Positions 50,907 through 57,497 of a stretch of 64,000 nucleotides of DNA are shown in pieces. The DNA comes from Sorangiineae bacterium NIC37A_2 (GTDB lineage: Bacteria > Myxococcota_A > Polyangia > Polyangiales > Polyangiaceae), in NCBI GenBank assembly GCA_002085155.1, contig NASX01000021.1, positions 1 through 64,000 on the forward strand, written 5' to 3'. The translations under genes and the position numbers were made by a program. The stretch's first letter is position 1, and every line of letters begins with the position of its first letter. The notes beneath the pieces are model-generated. The model searched no databases. It was given only the letters and a program-made list of their open reading frames with translations, and was not told where the DNA came from.

Positions 50907-52784
50907 ATGAGTCGACCCGCGGCGCTCCGGCGCATTTTTTCGCACCCGAAGGTCTTGTTCGAGACGAACCTGGGGCGGCTCTCCGGCACGGCGTTTTCGC
51001 TCCTCGCGCGGAGGCCTCGCACCTCGGGAGAACGGGCCAGCCCGGCCTGGGCTGGGCAGAAACTGGCGCGCCCCTCGGAGAAGACGAAACCGCCCCTCGG
51101 CTGGCCGCGCACCACGGACTCCCTCTGCCCTGAGTGCGTGAAGGCGGCGCGTGCGGCTGTGGTCTCTGGGGAGATGGATCTGAATCGCTTCCTCCATGCC
51201 CATCCCGGCCTGATCAAGGCGGAGATCTTCGCGCGCGACGGACAGGTCTGGATGAGGAAGACCTGCCCGGTGCATGGGGAGGTCGAAGATTTATTATCGA
51301 TCGACGAGAAGTTTCTCGAGCGTATCGAGGGGCTCTTCCCTGGACGCGATTTAGCGGGGCTTCGCACGAACTTGCGCGAGCACGGTCCGAGTTCGATCCA
51401 ATACGGACGTGGCTCAGTGCTCACGATCGATCTCACGAATCGGTGCAACATGATGTGCGATCCGTGCTTCATGGACGCCAATCAAGTCGGTTACGTCCAC
51501 GAGCTCAGCCTCGACGAGGTCAAGAAGCTGCTCGACGACTCCCTCACGATCAAGCCGCGGCGCCAGCTCAGCGTTCAGTTTTCCGGCGGTGAGCCCACGC
51601 TGCACCCCGACTTCCTCGAGGCGGTCCGTTACGCGCGTCAGGTGGGCTATTTTTCGGTGCAATGCGCTTCGAACGGCATCAAGTTCGCCGAGTCCCTCGA
51701 GTACGCGAAGGAAGCAAGGCGGGCCGGTCTTCGGCTCTGCTACTTGCAGTTTGATGGGGTGACGAACGAAGCGAACAGTCACCGCAAGGTCGGGAATCTG
51801 TTCGACGTGAAGCTCCGGGCGATCGATCATCTCGCTCAGGCGGGCATCGACGTCGTGCTGGTGGTGACGGTTGTGCGCGGCGTGAACGATGACCAGGTCG
51901 GCTCCGTGGTCCAGTTTGCCATCGACAACATCGACAAAGTGACCGTCGTATCGTTTCAGCCGGTGAGTTTCACGGGCCGCGACGAAGACATCTCGGAGAA
52001 GGAGCGCCGCGAGAAGCGCTACACCCTCAGCCACCTCGCCCACGACGTGAGCAGTCAGCTCGGCATCACGGAGCCCGGTCGCGATTGGTTCCCGCTCAGC
52101 TCGATGAATCCGCTGTCGGACGTTGTCGATCTCCTGCAAAATCCCGCTGAAAAGTTCGGCGCATTGAACTGCGGCTGCCACCCGAACTGCGGCATCGGCA
52201 CGATCCTGCTCGTCAACAAGAAGACCCGAGAGACGGTCCCGCTCGCAGAGTTCCTCGACGTCGAACAAGTCCTGAAAGACTTCACGACGATCGCCGAGGT
52301 GAGCGAAGGGCGCGCGGAGCGCTACGCGATGATGGCGCTCTCCCTCTTCAAGAACTTCCGTCCCGATCGGGCGCCCCTCGGCTACAGCGCCTTTGAGATG
52401 ATCCGTCAGGCGATGAGCCAGATGGGCGCGAAGGGGAAGAAGGTCGGAGATAGCGAGGGTGACGCGCAACAGTTTGAGTGGCGCTTCCTATTTGTCGCAG
52501 GCATGTGGTTCCAGGACGTCTTCAACTACGACTTCCGCCGTACGGAGATGTGCATCATCCCCTACGCGACGCAGCTCGGTGAAATCAGCTTCTGCGCCTA
52601 CAATACTGGCGTCGGCTTTCGCCAAATCGTCGAAAAGATGTTCCAGACCGCGAGCGTCGCTGAGTGGTACAAGAAGTACGGGCGCCATCCGGTCTACGCC
52701 AAGGGACGCGATTTGCCGCTTCCGCCCGGAGAGCCCAACGTGATCGTGCGACAGCGTCGCCGGCTCCCGCTCGCGATGAATTAG
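50907..52784 (+). CDS. Radical SAM protein resembling tetraether/membrane-spanning lipid synthase
   Basis: A 625-residue radical SAM enzyme. The SAM cluster is CNMMCDPC (Cys180, 184, 187), then QFSGGEPTLHPDF (about 225-237). An N-terminal cysteine domain has CPEC (74, 77) and CPVHG (120-124). Further cysteines occur as CGCHPNC (422-428) and at 549 and 563, enough for auxiliary clusters. This layout recalls the MJ0619/Tes family, which joins lipid tails through C-C bonds, but the match is from motif pattern and length. No membrane segment is visible. It faces the luxC-like gene tail-to-tail, with 22 bases between stops. A methyl- or other lipid-modifying radical SAM activity is an alternative. 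Confidence 0.72.
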   Translation: MSRPAALRRIFSHPKVLFETNLGRLSGTAFSLLARRPRTSGERASPAWAGQKLARPSEKTKPPLGWPRTTDSLCPECVKAARAAVVSGEMDLNRFLHAHPGLIKAEIFARDGQVWMRKTCPVHGEVEDLLSIDEKFLERIEGLFPGRDLAGLRTNLREHGPSSIQYGRGSVLTIDLTNRCNMMCDPCFMDANQVGYVHELSLDEVKKLLDDSLTIKPRRQLSVQFSGGEPTLHPDFLEAVRYARQVGYFSVQCASNGIKFAESLEYAKEARRAGLRLCYLQFDGVTNEANSHRKVGNLFDVKLRAIDHLAQAGIDVVLVVTVVRGVNDDQVGSVVQFAIDNIDKVTVVSFQPVSFTGRDEDISEKERREKRYTLSHLAHDVSSQLGITEPGRDWFPLSSMNPLSDVVDLLQNPAEKFGALNCGCHPNCGIGTILLVNKKTRETVPLAEFLDVEQVLKDFTTIAEVSEGRAERYAMMALSLFKNFRPDRAPLGYSAFEMIRQAMSQMGAKGKKVGDSEGDAQQFEWRFLFVAGMWFQDVFNYDFRRTEMCIIPYATQLGEISFCAYNTGVGFRQIVEKMFQTASVAEWYKKYGRHPVYAKGRDLPLPPGEPNVIVRQRRRLPLAMN

Positions 52785-52806: not shown

Positions 52807-53901
52807 TTAAGTCTCGCCGATGATCTCAGGACGGATCCCGGAGCGCAGATCGACGGGACCGTCGAGAGGTGGTCTCTGCAGCTGCCCGAAAGGGACCATG
52901 CGGCGCTCGCCGATCGCTTCGAGGAGCAATCCAGGCAAATGGGGCTGTCCATGGTGAGCGACGGCGGTCAGGGCAGGGCCGAGTTCCTCGAGCCGGTCGA
53001 GGGCGGCCGCGGTGCGGGTGATGTGGAGGTGGCGCCCGATGGGCGGGACGATGAGCCGCTCTGGCTCCGGATCGAGGGTCACGGAGCCCTGCCCCGCGTG
53101 GAGGAGGCCGCCGACGTACTCGAACGTCATCACGTAGCGCTTTTCGGCCGCGGCCTCTTCGGGGCTGAGCGAGCCGCGAGGGACCTGGGTTTCGGCGTCT
53201 TCGAGGGCCCTTTGCAGGCGACCTTGGAAGTCGCGAGCGAAGTCCTCGGAGCCCTGGAGGAGCAAGATGCGCGGGCTCAGGCAGCCCCTTTGGTCGAACA
53301 GAATGATATCGGTCGTGAGGTCGCAGGCGAGCTGATCGAGTTCCTCTTCGGGGGCTTCAATGAGCGGCTCAAAGAGCACAGCTGCGGCCATGCCGCTGCC
53401 GTGAGCGTGAAGGCGAGCTCCCTGCGGTAGGCTCTTTCTGAGCTCGTCGAGGGTGCTGTCGTGGGCGTAAGCCCAAACGTGGTCGCCCGGTTCGACTTCG
53501 AGCTCCTGAACGAGCTCAAAGGCCCCGTCCGATCCTTCCGCGAGCAAACGCGCCATGGTCTGGGCGCGCCGCGATGCGCGCACCTGGCACGTTTGGCCCT
53601 GGAGGATGCCGATCAAGATGGCTCGGTAGGCGGCGACGAAGACGTTCGCTGAGAGGAGGACATGACTTCGCTCGGAAGAAGGAAGACGCGCTCCCAGCTG
53701 GAGAATGGTGGCGCGGCTCGCCTCATGTTCGAGAGAGAAAAGGAGCGCGAGGTCGACGTTCTCCGGAGACAGGCCTGTCTCTTCGGCGAGCTCCCGGCGC
53801 GCGCGCTTTCCGATTTCTGTCGAGCCATCGGCGATGAGCTCAGCGGCGCGCGCGAGCGCAAAGGCGCGCGCGGCCTGATCGTCGGTCACGCGGTGACTCA
53901 T
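52807..53901 (-). CDS. LuxC-like acyl reductase
   Basis: A 364-residue member of the LuxC acyl-CoA reductase family, which reduces acyl thioesters to aldehydes with NADPH. The catalytic Cys is in DIILFDQRGCLSPRILL (Cys207), matching the family's QxxCLSP block; the cofactor-region HAHGSGMAAAVL (about 166-176) and N-terminal helical domain also fit. The length is some 100 residues shorter than luminous LuxC. Its ATG overlaps the LuxE-like stop (ATGA). No luciferase genes are present, so bioluminescence is not indicated. Confidence 0.82.
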   Translation of the reverse strand: MSHRVTDDQAARAFALARAAELIADGSTEIGKRARRELAEETGLSPENVDLALLFSLEHEASRATILQLGARLPSSERSHVLLSANVFVAAYRAILIGILQGQTCQVRASRRAQTMARLLAEGSDGAFELVQELEVEPGDHVWAYAHDSTLDELRKSLPQGARLHAHGSGMAAAVLFEPLIEAPEEELDQLACDLTTDIILFDQRGCLSPRILLLQGSEDFARDFQGRLQRALEDAETQVPRGSLSPEEAAAEKRYVMTFEYVGGLLHAGQGSVTLDPEPERLIVPPIGRHLHITRTAAALDRLEELGPALTAVAHHGQPHLPGLLLEAIGERRMVPFGQLQRPPLDGPVDLRSGIRPEIIGET

Positions 53902-55088
53902 AACTTTCCTCCTCCGAGCAAGCTCTCATAGGTGAGGCTGCAGCCACGAGGGGGAGCCGCGGGAGCGCGACCGAGGAGCTGAATGCCTCCGTCTATCTCT
54001 AGGATGCGGTCTTCGGTGAGCACGGTCAGACACGAGTCGATGTTGCCGAGGTCGATGAAGGCAGCGAGCCCTTCAGTCCCTCTGCGGACGCGAGCGTGGG
54101 TCACAGGATCGACGGCGAGCACCCGAAGCCAAGGGGGCGCGTGATAGAGGCTCGCGCGCCCTCTGGCGGGGAACCACGCGCTCTTGGGCTCGTCCTTTCC
54201 TTCGGAACCCCAGGCTTCGTAGAGCTGGCTCGTGAGCTCTGTCATCCCGTACTCGCCGAGCACTTGTTCTGGCTCGGCGGAGAATGCTCGGGCGATCTGC
54301 GCCCGGATCTCTTGCTCGGGAACCTCCCGCGCGCGTCCTTTGAAGCCGCCGGTGATCATGAGGCGTACCAAGGGAGCTGGGGGAAGTCGTTCGTCGCCGA
54401 GAGCTTCGAGCAGAGCGACGTAAGCGAAGCTGGTTCCGAGCACGACGAGGGGCTCTTGGCGATGCCGCGCGAGGCGCACGGCGCGCCTCAGGCCTTCGAT
54501 ATCGACGCCGCGGGGCCCGATCAGAAAGCGGCCGGCGTAGTCGAGCTCCGCGGGGACTGGGTCGGTGCTCAAGCTGCGGCCGTCGATCTCACGCATGAAG
54601 AGTTCCATCATGTACGTGAGAGAGGAGGTGGGCCGAGGGCCAGGTTTCGGCTCGGCGAGGGCGACGATGATGGGACGGGCGCTGAGACCCCGGAAGAGCG
54701 TGGAGCGAGCGAGCAGGAGCGCTAAGTGGTCGTAGGTCGACAGCGTGCGGGTCGGATGGACGCCGGTTTCGCGCTTTGTGGTCCCGCTCGTCTGAAAACG
54801 GGCCACGTCGAGCTCGGCCGGATAGGTGGCGACGCGAGTGAGCCGAAAGACCTCCGCCGGAACGAGAGGAAGCTCCTCGAGCGAGCTCGGAGGAGCAGGG
54901 ATCAAGCGCTCGAGGCCCGGACATTCCTGGCGCTGGAATGCCGCGATGGCGAGGGCGAGCTCTTCGAAGGACTCGGAGGGTGTCGCGCCTTCGACCACAC
55001 TCGACGCAAACGCGCGCACCCGCGCGTGGAGCGACTCGCTCTGCTCGAGGGCGCGGGGGCGCATGACGCGCGCGATCGGGTCCGTCAT
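53898..55088 (-). CDS. LuxE-like acyl-protein synthetase
   Basis: A 396-residue LuxE-family adenylating enzyme. VARFQTSGTTKRETGVHP carries the phosphate-binding SGTT loop (about 101-104), VLGTSFAYVALLEAL and RLMITGGFKGRAREVPEQEI are middle blocks, and VLGEYGMTELTSQLYEAWG is the adenylate-binding EYGMTE motif. It would activate a free fatty acid as acyl-AMP and pass it to a Cys of LuxE or to the partner LuxC-like reductase. Both flanking genes overlap it by ATGA, so the three products should form a complex. Confidence 0.85.
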   Translation of the reverse strand: MTDPIARVMRPRALEQSESLHARVRAFASSVVEGATPSESFEELALAIAAFQRQECPGLERLIPAPPSSLEELPLVPAEVFRLTRVATYPAELDVARFQTSGTTKRETGVHPTRTLSTYDHLALLLARSTLFRGLSARPIIVALAEPKPGPRPTSSLTYMMELFMREIDGRSLSTDPVPAELDYAGRFLIGPRGVDIEGLRRAVRLARHRQEPLVVLGTSFAYVALLEALGDERLPPAPLVRLMITGGFKGRAREVPEQEIRAQIARAFSAEPEQVLGEYGMTELTSQLYEAWGSEGKDEPKSAWFPARGRASLYHAPPWLRVLAVDPVTHARVRRGTEGLAAFIDLGNIDSCLTVLTEDRILEIDGGIQLLGRAPAAPPRGCSLTYESLLGGGKL

Positions 55089-56395
55089 CGCGCTCCTTTT
55101 CGCTGCTGGAGAGCGTCGCGGAGGGCTTCGGCGAGAGCGTCCAAGTGTTCCTCTTCGATGGTGAGCGGCGGTGTCAGGACCAAGACGTCCCTTTGTCCGC
55201 CGCCGGTCGTCGTCATAAAGCCCCGCTCGAGGAGGCGCTGCCGGAGCCCGGATGCGCCTCCCGCCGCGAGCCCGACCTCGAGCCCCACCATGAGGCCTCT
55301 TCCGCGTAGCTTGAGGCCGGGGAACTCTTCGGTGAGGGGCTCGAGACGTTTAATGAGCCGGCCGCCTTTGCGCAGGCTTTCTTCCGGGAGCCGATCGCGC
55401 TCGAGGATCTCGAGCGTGCGGAGCGCCACAGCAGCGGAGAGAGGAGCTCCAGCGAAGGTCGAGGTGTGCACGACCTCGTCCGGTCGGCTCCAGTTCTCCA
55501 TCAGGCGCTTGGGACCGAGGCAGGCGCTCACGGGAAGACCACCACCGAGCCCCTTGCCGAGACAAATCAGATCCGGCAGCGCGCCATCGTGGACACAGCT
55601 GAGCCAAGCGCCCGAGCGCCCGAGGCCCGTCCAGATCTCATCGGCAATGACGAGCGCACCTCGCGAGTGAGCGAGTTCGAAGAGGGCTGAGAGATAGCCA
55701 GCAGGCGGAACCACGACGCCGCCGCGCCCGAGGATCGGTTCGATGAGGACGGCGCCGACGTTGTCGTCGATGAGCGCCCGAGCGCGCTCGAGCGATTCTT
55801 CGCCGTCCCCCTCCGGATAGGGAGCGACGCGGACGTGAGGAGAGAGCTGAGCCAAAAAGGGGGTGCGATAGCTTTGGCGCAAGTCCGAGTGCGCGAGGGG
55901 GCCGTAGGAGAGGCCGTGATAGGAGCCGGAGAAGGCGAGCACACCGGGACGCCCCGTCGCGAGCAGCGCCGTCTTGAGCGCAGCGGTGATCGCATCGGCG
56001 CCACTCAGTCCGAGTAGGCCCGTCGCATCGCCGCTCGGGTGGAGTCTGGTGAGCTTCTCGAGAAGCTCGATCTTCTTCGTGCTGGGAGAGACATCGCCGA
56101 GCGCTTGCCAGAGTTCGGTGCTCTGCTCGGAGAGGACCTTCTCGAGCTCGGGGTGAGCGTGTCCGAGCAGAAGTGCGCCGAAGCCGGCGGCGAAATCGAC
56201 GTAACGATTCCCATCGACACAATAGACGTTGGATGCGCGTCCACGCTCAAACACGACCGAGTCGAAGGGCTGTCCGTTCGGAGCCTTCGGTCCCATGGGG
56301 GCCGCTTGGGCGCGATGACGCGCGGACCAGGCGCGGGAGTTTGGGCCGGGCGGAGGGACCCGGACGTCCGGCGGCTCGGTCTTCGATTCCAACAT
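55085..56395 (-). CDS. Class III PLP-dependent aminotransferase
   Basis: A 436-residue aminotransferase of the acetylornithine/omega-aminotransferase class. The N-terminal YVDFAAGFGALLLGHAHPEL, SGSYHGLSYG, ADEIWTGLGRSG (Asp252 for the PLP nitrogen) and LICLGKGLGGGLPVSACLG (PLP Lys281) are present. In family members the amino acceptor is an aldehyde or keto acid. Coupled to LuxE- and LuxC-like genes, it could transaminate a long-chain aldehyde to a primary amine; this is inferred from order only. It is the first gene of this three-gene set and lies 76 bases behind the FHA-GGDEF gene. Confidence 0.9.
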   Translation of the reverse strand: MLESKTEPPDVRVPPPGPNSRAWSARHRAQAAPMGPKAPNGQPFDSVVFERGRASNVYCVDGNRYVDFAAGFGALLLGHAHPELEKVLSEQSTELWQALGDVSPSTKKIELLEKLTRLHPSGDATGLLGLSGADAITAALKTALLATGRPGVLAFSGSYHGLSYGPLAHSDLRQSYRTPFLAQLSPHVRVAPYPEGDGEESLERARALIDDNVGAVLIEPILGRGGVVVPPAGYLSALFELAHSRGALVIADEIWTGLGRSGAWLSCVHDGALPDLICLGKGLGGGLPVSACLGPKRLMENWSRPDEVVHTSTFAGAPLSAAVALRTLEILERDRLPEESLRKGGRLIKRLEPLTEEFPGLKLRGRGLMVGLEVGLAAGGASGLRQRLLERGFMTTTGGGQRDVLVLTPPLTIEEEHLDALAEALRDALQQRKGAR

Positions 56396-56471: not shown

Positions 56472-57497
56472 TCAGAGACAGACGCGGTTGCGTCCGCTGC
56501 GCTTGGCTTCGTAGAGCTTCTGGTCAGCGGCGGCGATCAGCTCAGCGCCGGTCATCTTGGGCGCTAGGGCTGCTCCGCCCATCGACATGGTTACGGCGAT
56601 ACGCTCACCCTGGAAGACGAAATCGTGGGCCTCGATGCGCATGCGCAGGGTTTCGGCCAGCTGGCGTGCACCCTCCAGAGAAGTCTCAGGCAGCACGAGC
56701 GCGAACTCCTCGCCGCCGTAGCGCGCGAATACCTCATCCCTCCGGATCCGCTCCGAGATGACGCGAGCGAGCTCGCGCAAGACGTGGTCGCCCGCGAGGT
56801 GCCCGTAGCGATCGTTGATGCTCTTAAAGTGATCGATATCGAACATGAGCACGCTGAGGTCGCGTGTATGGCGGCGAGCGCGTGTTACCTCGCGGTCGAG
56901 GGCCTCGACCAAGTGCCGCTTGTTGTAGATCTGCGTGAGACCATCCATGATGGTCATCCGGTAGATCTCCTCGTGGTACTTGGCTTCGGCGTCCGCGCCG
57001 GAGAGGAACTTCAGGATGGTCGGGCCGATCTTGATGCGGTCGCCGTTGTCCAGGCGAGCCTCGCTCTCGACCTGCTCCTCGTTCACGTAGGTCCCGTTGG
57101 TGCTCTTGTCGTCGACGATATACCAGCTGCCGGGGCCGCGGCGCTCGAGGTGCGCGTGGCGGCGGCTCACGCTGTCTCCTTCGAGGATCAGGTGGCTCTC
57201 GTTGCCGCGGCCGATGCGCAAAACGGGCTGTTCGAGAACGATACGCTTACCGAGCAGGGCCGGTTCGGTCGTATAGATGACAACGAGGCACTCGGCGGTC
57301 GCGTTCGTCTCCGGCATGGCCGGCTGGACGACTTCCGTCACTCGAGTCTTCTCGTCTTGTTCGTTCTGCTCGCTCAAACGGGCCCTCTTCGCCTCGACCG
57401 CCTCGGCAAACTTCGGACTCCGCGATCCTGAGGGGAGGCGGAGCGGTCCTGGCCGGTCAATTGAAACCAGTTTCCCTCGAAAACACCACAGCTTCAA
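56472..57497 (-). CDS. FHA-domain diguanylate cyclase with altered inhibitory site
   Basis: Up to 341 residues; the N-terminal 60 may be overcalled, with a later start near SEQNEQDEKTRV possible. An FHA domain (VLRIGRGNESHLILEGDSVSRRHAH, then DDKSTNGTYVNEE) is followed by a GGDEF domain: MDGLTQIYNKRHLVEAL, MFDIDHFKSINDRYGHLAGD and active site RYGGEEFALVL. Five residues before GGEEF the motif is RRDE, not RxxD, so product inhibition may be lost. The protein resembles the one encoded at 27168. It lies upstream of the aminotransferase-luxE-luxC genes on the same strand. Confidence 0.93.
   Translation of the reverse strand: MKLWCFRGKLVSIDRPGPLRLPSGSRSPKFAEAVEAKRARLSEQNEQDEKTRVTEVVQPAMPETNATAECLVVIYTTEPALLGKRIVLEQPVLRIGRGNESHLILEGDSVSRRHAHLERRGPGSWYIVDDKSTNGTYVNEEQVESEARLDNGDRIKIGPTILKFLSGADAEAKYHEEIYRMTIMDGLTQIYNKRHLVEALDREVTRARRHTRDLSVLMFDIDHFKSINDRYGHLAGDHVLRELARVISERIRRDEVFARYGGEEFALVLPETSLEGARQLAETLRMRIEAHDFVFQGERIAVTMSMGGAALAPKMTGAELIAAADQKLYEAKRSGRNRVCL

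Follow-up and report, generated by a model that had tools for sequence, protein, structure and literature searches.

An aminotransferase-LuxE-LuxC operon of Myxococcota and other phyla: a candidate route from carboxylic acids to primary amines

Introduction

We analysed a 64,000-nucleotide stretch of the genome of Sorangiineae bacterium NIC37A_2 (contig NASX01000021.1, positions 1 to 64,000 of the forward strand; hereafter the window), in which three overlapping genes encode a class III aminotransferase, a LuxE-like acyl-protein synthetase and a LuxC-like acyl-thioester reductase. Judging from these genes and their relatives, we put at about 0.6 the probability that the triplet converts a carboxylic acid, by way of the aldehyde, into a primary amine. 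One closely related system is the LuxC-LuxE reductase of bioluminescence (7xc6), with which the triplet shares adjacent genes, acyl-carrying and catalytic cysteines and homology over nearly the full length of both proteins, but where the lux system has the LuxD thioesterase and the LuxAB luciferase, the triplet has an aminotransferase.

For the chemistry, the closest precedent is TamA/TamH of tambjamine YP1 biosynthesis, where a class III aminotransferase likewise ends a path from acid through thioester and aldehyde to a primary amine, and which has been reconstituted with ATP, NADH and L-Glu to turn a C12 acid into the C12 amine (PMC9594044). TamA, however, is a fusion of an ANL ligase with an acyl carrier protein (ACP), and TamH a fusion of the aminotransferase with a thioester reductase of another type, whereas the triplet consists of separate genes, has no ACP domain and uses a reductase of the aldehyde dehydrogenase (ALDH) type; moreover, TamA/TamH sits in one pigment gene cluster, while the triplet is widespread and stands alone as an operon. 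PigE of prodigiosin biosynthesis is also a class III aminotransferase acting on an aldehyde, but it is fused to a reductase, and the window aminotransferase reaches 228 bits against the PigE model, over the aminotransferase part of PigE and below the cut-off of 850. LuxE and LuxC homologues outside bioluminescence are known from flagellin glycosylation islands, where they occur with ACP, FabG, an AMP ligase and glycosyltransferases, and from which an aminotransferase-LuxE-LuxC triplet is not reported (PMC7874193, PMC4875605). The EhpF/EhpG pair of griseoluteic acid (phenazine) biosynthesis, in turn, places a short, LuxE-shaped ANL ligase beside an ALDH-family gene, but acts on an aromatic substrate. 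We know of no aminotransferase partner of EhpF/EhpG. The same order of activation, reduction and class III transamination as proposed here for the triplet is found in ArgB-ArgC-ArgD and LysZ-LysY-LysJ, which differ in activating small amino-acid substrates as phosphates and not as adenylates and thioesters.

In the literature searched, we found no description of a LuxE-LuxC-aminotransferase set, and only TamA/TamH for the chemistry. The original remark that no described pathway with this set was known is thus upheld for the enzyme set, which is new as far as that literature goes, but not for acid-to-amine chemistry, which was already known (PMC9594044).

Organisation and recurrence of the operon

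Open reading frame analysis places the operon on the minus strand, running from 56395 to 52807, with each stop codon sharing four bases with the next start:

55085..56395, minus strand: class III (PF00202) pyridoxal phosphate (PLP)-dependent aminotransferase, 436 aa
55085..55088, minus strand: ATGA overlap of the aminotransferase stop and the LuxE start (tcat on the plus strand)
53898..55088, minus strand: LuxE-like acyl-protein synthetase, ANL fold, 396 aa
53898..53901, minus strand: ATGA overlap of the LuxE stop and the LuxC start (tcat on the plus strand)
52807..53901, minus strand: LuxC-like acyl-thioester reductase, ALDH fold, 364 aa

Coordinates, gene order and both overlaps agree with the original prediction. 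So does the content of the surroundings, as Pfam annotation of the flanking genes finds no luciferase, decarbonylase or alcohol dehydrogenase, and neither LuxAB nor LuxD beside LuxC and LuxE; the locus is thus not a lux operon.

A LuxE homologue is present in 227 of the 284 genomes of the phylum. In a comparison of 40 phylum loci, each of up to 20 kb, the aminotransferase lies directly upstream of LuxE in 33, with LuxC next in most, and in a genome scan 43 of 80 named loci carry the whole triplet, loci of Verrucomicrobiota and Planctomycetota among them. In six further loci the upstream aminotransferase is cut by a contig end or comes from another clade, in two the aminotransferase lies downstream of LuxE-LuxC, and LuxE-LuxC pairs without an adjacent aminotransferase also occur. 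The triplet therefore recurs in other genomes, where it had been suggested to look for it, and is no local accident; its carriers include many bacteria without known light production. The genes around it differ between families, which marks it as an isolated operon; among the neighbourhoods compared we found no conserved fourth gene beyond an own-family synteny with a GGDEF-FHA gene. In two sister genomes (L034:768-1820, L035:6504-7550), LuxC lies several kilobases from the aminotransferase-LuxE pair, nearby and on the same strand.

Co-inheritance of the three genes

Presence of the aminotransferase and LuxE was called across the 284 genomes at a best E-value below 1e-100. Both were found in 220 genomes and neither in 54, leaving 10 exceptions: 7 with LuxE only and 3 with the aminotransferase only. 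When genomes were examined singly, members of the LuxE-linked aminotransferase clade scored at least 478 bits, one frame-broken copy apart, and the best aminotransferases of LuxE-negative genomes at most 312. LuxC was found in 10 of 10 LuxE-positive genomes tested, unlinked cases included, and in none of 12 LuxE-negative ones.

The association extends to genomes in which the genes are separated. Seven genomes (Bradymonadia-like and other families) with no aminotransferase at the LuxE locus encode it elsewhere, and Gemmatimonadota and Chloroflexota genomes with a lone LuxE-LuxC pair likewise carry an aminotransferase of the same clade at another site. In the tree, linked and unlinked aminotransferases form one clade (support 100/99), and its starred branches require at least four changes of linkage. 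The surroundings of the unlinked aminotransferases yielded no informative partner gene; in four Bradymonadia-like loci (L209, L211, L212, L216) the unlinked aminotransferase adjoins a small Nudix-like gene, assigned by eye.

These patterns bear on whether the aldehyde goes mainly to another fate, such as an alcohol or a luciferase-like oxidation, with the aminotransferase serving a separate reaction. LuxE-LuxC pairs without an adjacent aminotransferase would fit such a role, as would four close loci from metagenome-assembled genomes (L104, L110, L113, L118), where a second class III aminotransferase and then a luciferase-like (PF00296) monooxygenase are found upstream of the triplet (the pair at L110:1998-4160). 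Yet an opposite-strand gene separates this pair from the triplet, the arrangement is confined to a single lineage and is no demonstration of another aldehyde fate, the specific aminotransferase is still present in most of the tested genomes that lack the linkage, and no recurring alcohol dehydrogenase or decarbonylase was seen in the loci compared. We consider this alternative improbable.

A second, independent association points the same way. In Methylomirabilota (L121, L137 and L147, and by score L142), LuxE-LuxC has an aminotransferase of a different clade on its upstream side; in Nitrospirota (L115, L139) it has a relative of this Methylomirabilota-type enzyme on its downstream side. The two groups together form a clade separate from the Myxococcota-type enzymes in the tree (support 100/99) and retain the canonical residues, Glu in 'GEAG/SEGG' and Arg in 'VIR.APP'. 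Two different class III aminotransferases beside the same reductase pair imply that amination has joined it at least twice, and nothing else argues as strongly for amination of the aldehyde. In G289 and G296, two genomes of Methylomirabilota type, LuxE-LuxC has no adjacent aminotransferase of either type, and the genome search gave no strong match to the first clade.

The three proteins

The window LuxE-like protein is divergent: taken alone it has no Pfam matches, it matches NCBIfam LuxE weakly (E=1.4e-4) at the C-terminus, and it scores 20.9 bits against the bioluminescence LuxE equivalog NF052244, whose cut-off is 550. Owing to this divergence, the PF04443 profile alone finds nothing in its own genome. 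Family membership is nevertheless supported through its relatives: 44 of 45 aligned homologues match PF04443 and the family profile matches Photobacterium phosphoreum LuxE (7xc6_E) with E=6e-38 over profile positions 31-361. The ATP motif reads TSGTT, with SG invariant in the 45 aligned sequences; equally invariant is the C-terminal motif (RGC, GCS), which aligns with GCS of 7xc6_E and whose Cys383 (codon about 53940-53942) is the presumed acyl acceptor.

The LuxC-like protein matches PF05893 in its middle part (residues 79-255; E=8.4e-15, 55 bits against a gathering score of 21), and its family profile matches 7xc6_A with E=8e-40 over positions 28-425. Its AlphaFold2 model (mean pLDDT 86.3) has 7xc6_A as the top PDB match (TMq 0.79). 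Cys207, in DQRGCLSP (codon about 53281-53283), is invariant in alignments A3 and A5, and its region aligns with DQ..C.S of 7xc6_A. The corresponding cysteines of LuxE and LuxC of bioluminescence are known to carry the acyl group. By their profiles, then, the two window proteins are true relatives of the luciferase acid reductase, in agreement with their original assignment.

The AlphaFold2 model of the LuxE-like protein (mean pLDDT 85.5) is an ANL ligase whose nearest folds are PaaK (Z 24.6), then EhpF (Z about 20.7), with fatty-acid ligases at about 15.7; 7xc6_E is not among the structure matches listed (Foldseek, VIA), yet is the best match by sequence profile. This raises the question of the substrate. 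The same three steps could act on a non-fatty acid (aromatic, polyketide-derived or amino-substituted) and yield an amine that is short or aromatic; as far as the steps are concerned this is a special case of the proposed route, and it is a rival only for the product. The proximity of the model to PaaK, to salicylate-type ligases and to phenazine EhpF, whose AMP-binding gene adjoins the ALDH-family gene EhpG in phenazine clusters, would be consistent with this, as would the aminotransferase, which is as similar to the transaminases of γ-aminobutyrate (GABA), putrescine and acetylornithine as it is to PigE. Profile searches, on the other hand, rank the fatty acid reductase components LuxE and LuxC far above all else, and the loci compared share no conserved neighbouring gene for aromatic or polyketide metabolism, so that we regard a non-fatty acid as unlikely, though a serious alternative.

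The aminotransferase matches PF00202 (Aminotran_3) with E=2.9e-84 and 283.6 bits, and its catalytic, PLP-binding Lys281 (codon about 55553-55555) is invariant. Throughout the Myxococcota-type clade, the glutamate/2-oxoglutarate-type signature (Arg of '[I/L]R.xPP' together with Glu of 'EPI.GE') is missing: Val or Leu takes the place of the usual Arg, the clade reading 'VL.LTPP', and Arg (R224, in 'GRGG') takes that of the family's Glu. This swapped charge pair suggests another mode of amino-donor binding.

The top PDB sequence matches of the aminotransferase are alanine/serine and broad amino-acid racemases, which raises the possibility of a racemase, or of a keto-acid transaminase, that merely shares the operon. 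Those racemases and GABA transaminase, however, keep the α-carboxylate-binding Arg of '[I/L]R.xPP', which the LuxE-linked clade never has, and this clade carries Arg for Glu at 'GRGG'; we think such an activity very improbable. A role in making diamines or polyamines, for instance from GABA to putrescine, seems more remote again. It would fit the nearness to putrescine aminotransferases and the lack of a strong SpeA match in some LuxE-positive genomes (Bradymonadia-like, Manganitrophus), but the triplet and a full SpeA occur together in its own genome and in G116, G052 and G178, and neither SpeA nor the spermidine synthase family tracks LuxE.

Proposed route and its product

From the observed gene order, protein families, residues and co-inheritance we infer catalysis, direction, cofactor use and complex formation as follows. 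LuxE would adenylate a carboxylic acid with ATP and move the acyl group onto Cys383 in its own C-terminal part; LuxC, in a complex with LuxE as in the luciferase reductase complex, would take the acyl group on Cys207 and reduce the thioester with NAD(P)H to the aldehyde; and the class III aminotransferase would turn the aldehyde into R-CH2-NH2. Direct amination would prevent a build-up of reactive aldehyde, and the three enzymes would need no separate carrier protein. Transamination and ALDH-fold reactions are in general reversible, and the pathway might in principle run backwards, degrading an amine to an acid; no result here favours this, degradation would need just an aminotransferase and a plain aldehyde dehydrogenase, and the retained ATP motif and acyl-accepting Cys of LuxE argue for an energy-driven reduction, which leaves reversal the slimmest of chances.

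The acid-aldehyde-amine logic of the original prediction is supported by the conserved triplet, by co-inheritance when the genes are unlinked and by the recruitment of a second aminotransferase; its long-chain fatty acid fared less well, as PaaK and EhpF take aromatic acids. A medium- or long-chain fatty acid is suggested by the homology to LuxE and LuxC only and is the less supported part, and we would place a fatty amine as the product slightly below even odds.

Several observations weigh against the proposed route. The Fisher test for co-occurrence of LuxE and the aminotransferase (p=2e-46) is uncorrected for shared ancestry, the aminotransferase search scored six candidates per genome, and seven LuxE-positive genomes have no strong aminotransferase match, although two of these have marginal LuxE matches only and several of the exceptional genomes are incomplete. 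The amino donor is uncertain because the Arg that binds the glutamate carboxylate is missing. The nearest folds of LuxE include aromatic-acid ligases, even though the sequence profile picks LuxE itself, and since the operon has no conserved neighbour encoding a carrier, a transporter or a tailoring enzyme, its context does not name the product.

Since the operon is without transport, polyketide synthase or regulatory genes, the amine could belong to core metabolism as a lipid or as the precursor of one, again with less support. More tentatively, the triplet may represent a conserved, unrecognised core pathway for a primary, probably fatty, amine in much of Myxococcota, in Gemmatimonadota, Methylomirabilota, Nitrospirota and Chloroflexota, and in some Verrucomicrobiota. 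If so, many environmental bacteria of several phyla, mostly known from metagenomes alone, would make a primary amine overlooked by lipid surveys, and there would be a class of amine lipids, or of metabolites derived from amines, that has yet to be described. LuxE and LuxC would then serve a role other than light, which would account for the frequent occurrence of luciferase-type acid reductases in dark bacteria, and the triplet would offer a ready-made, carrier-free, three-gene acid-to-amine cassette.

Genomic neighbourhood

Directly upstream of the aminotransferase lies one further gene on the same strand, assigned by Pfam and synteny:

56472..57497, minus strand: FHA-GGDEF diguanylate cyclase

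It ends 77 bases from the aminotransferase and is syntenic beside the triplet in 13 of 13 own-family loci, but absent there in most other families. It is probably a neighbour or a member of a shared transcript, and no pathway enzyme; being close, syntenic and on the same strand, it indicates that the transcript may extend beyond the triplet, and a common regulation is possible.

Convergent with the triplet, the gene at 50907-52784 on the plus strand of the window encodes a radical SAM protein that carries an HMPTM zinc ribbon at its N-terminus. It scores 351.6 bits against the model of the tetraether lipid synthase Tes (cut-off 450) and is a candidate bacterial tail-coupling enzyme for membrane-spanning lipids. 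A functional link to the triplet was considered and rejected, as none of the other loci compared has a counterpart of this gene next to the triplet.

At a LuxE-LuxC locus with no linked aminotransferase (L058:11754-13148, plus strand), a GT87-family glycosyltransferase gene shares four bases with the end of LuxC, and the product there could be glycosylated.

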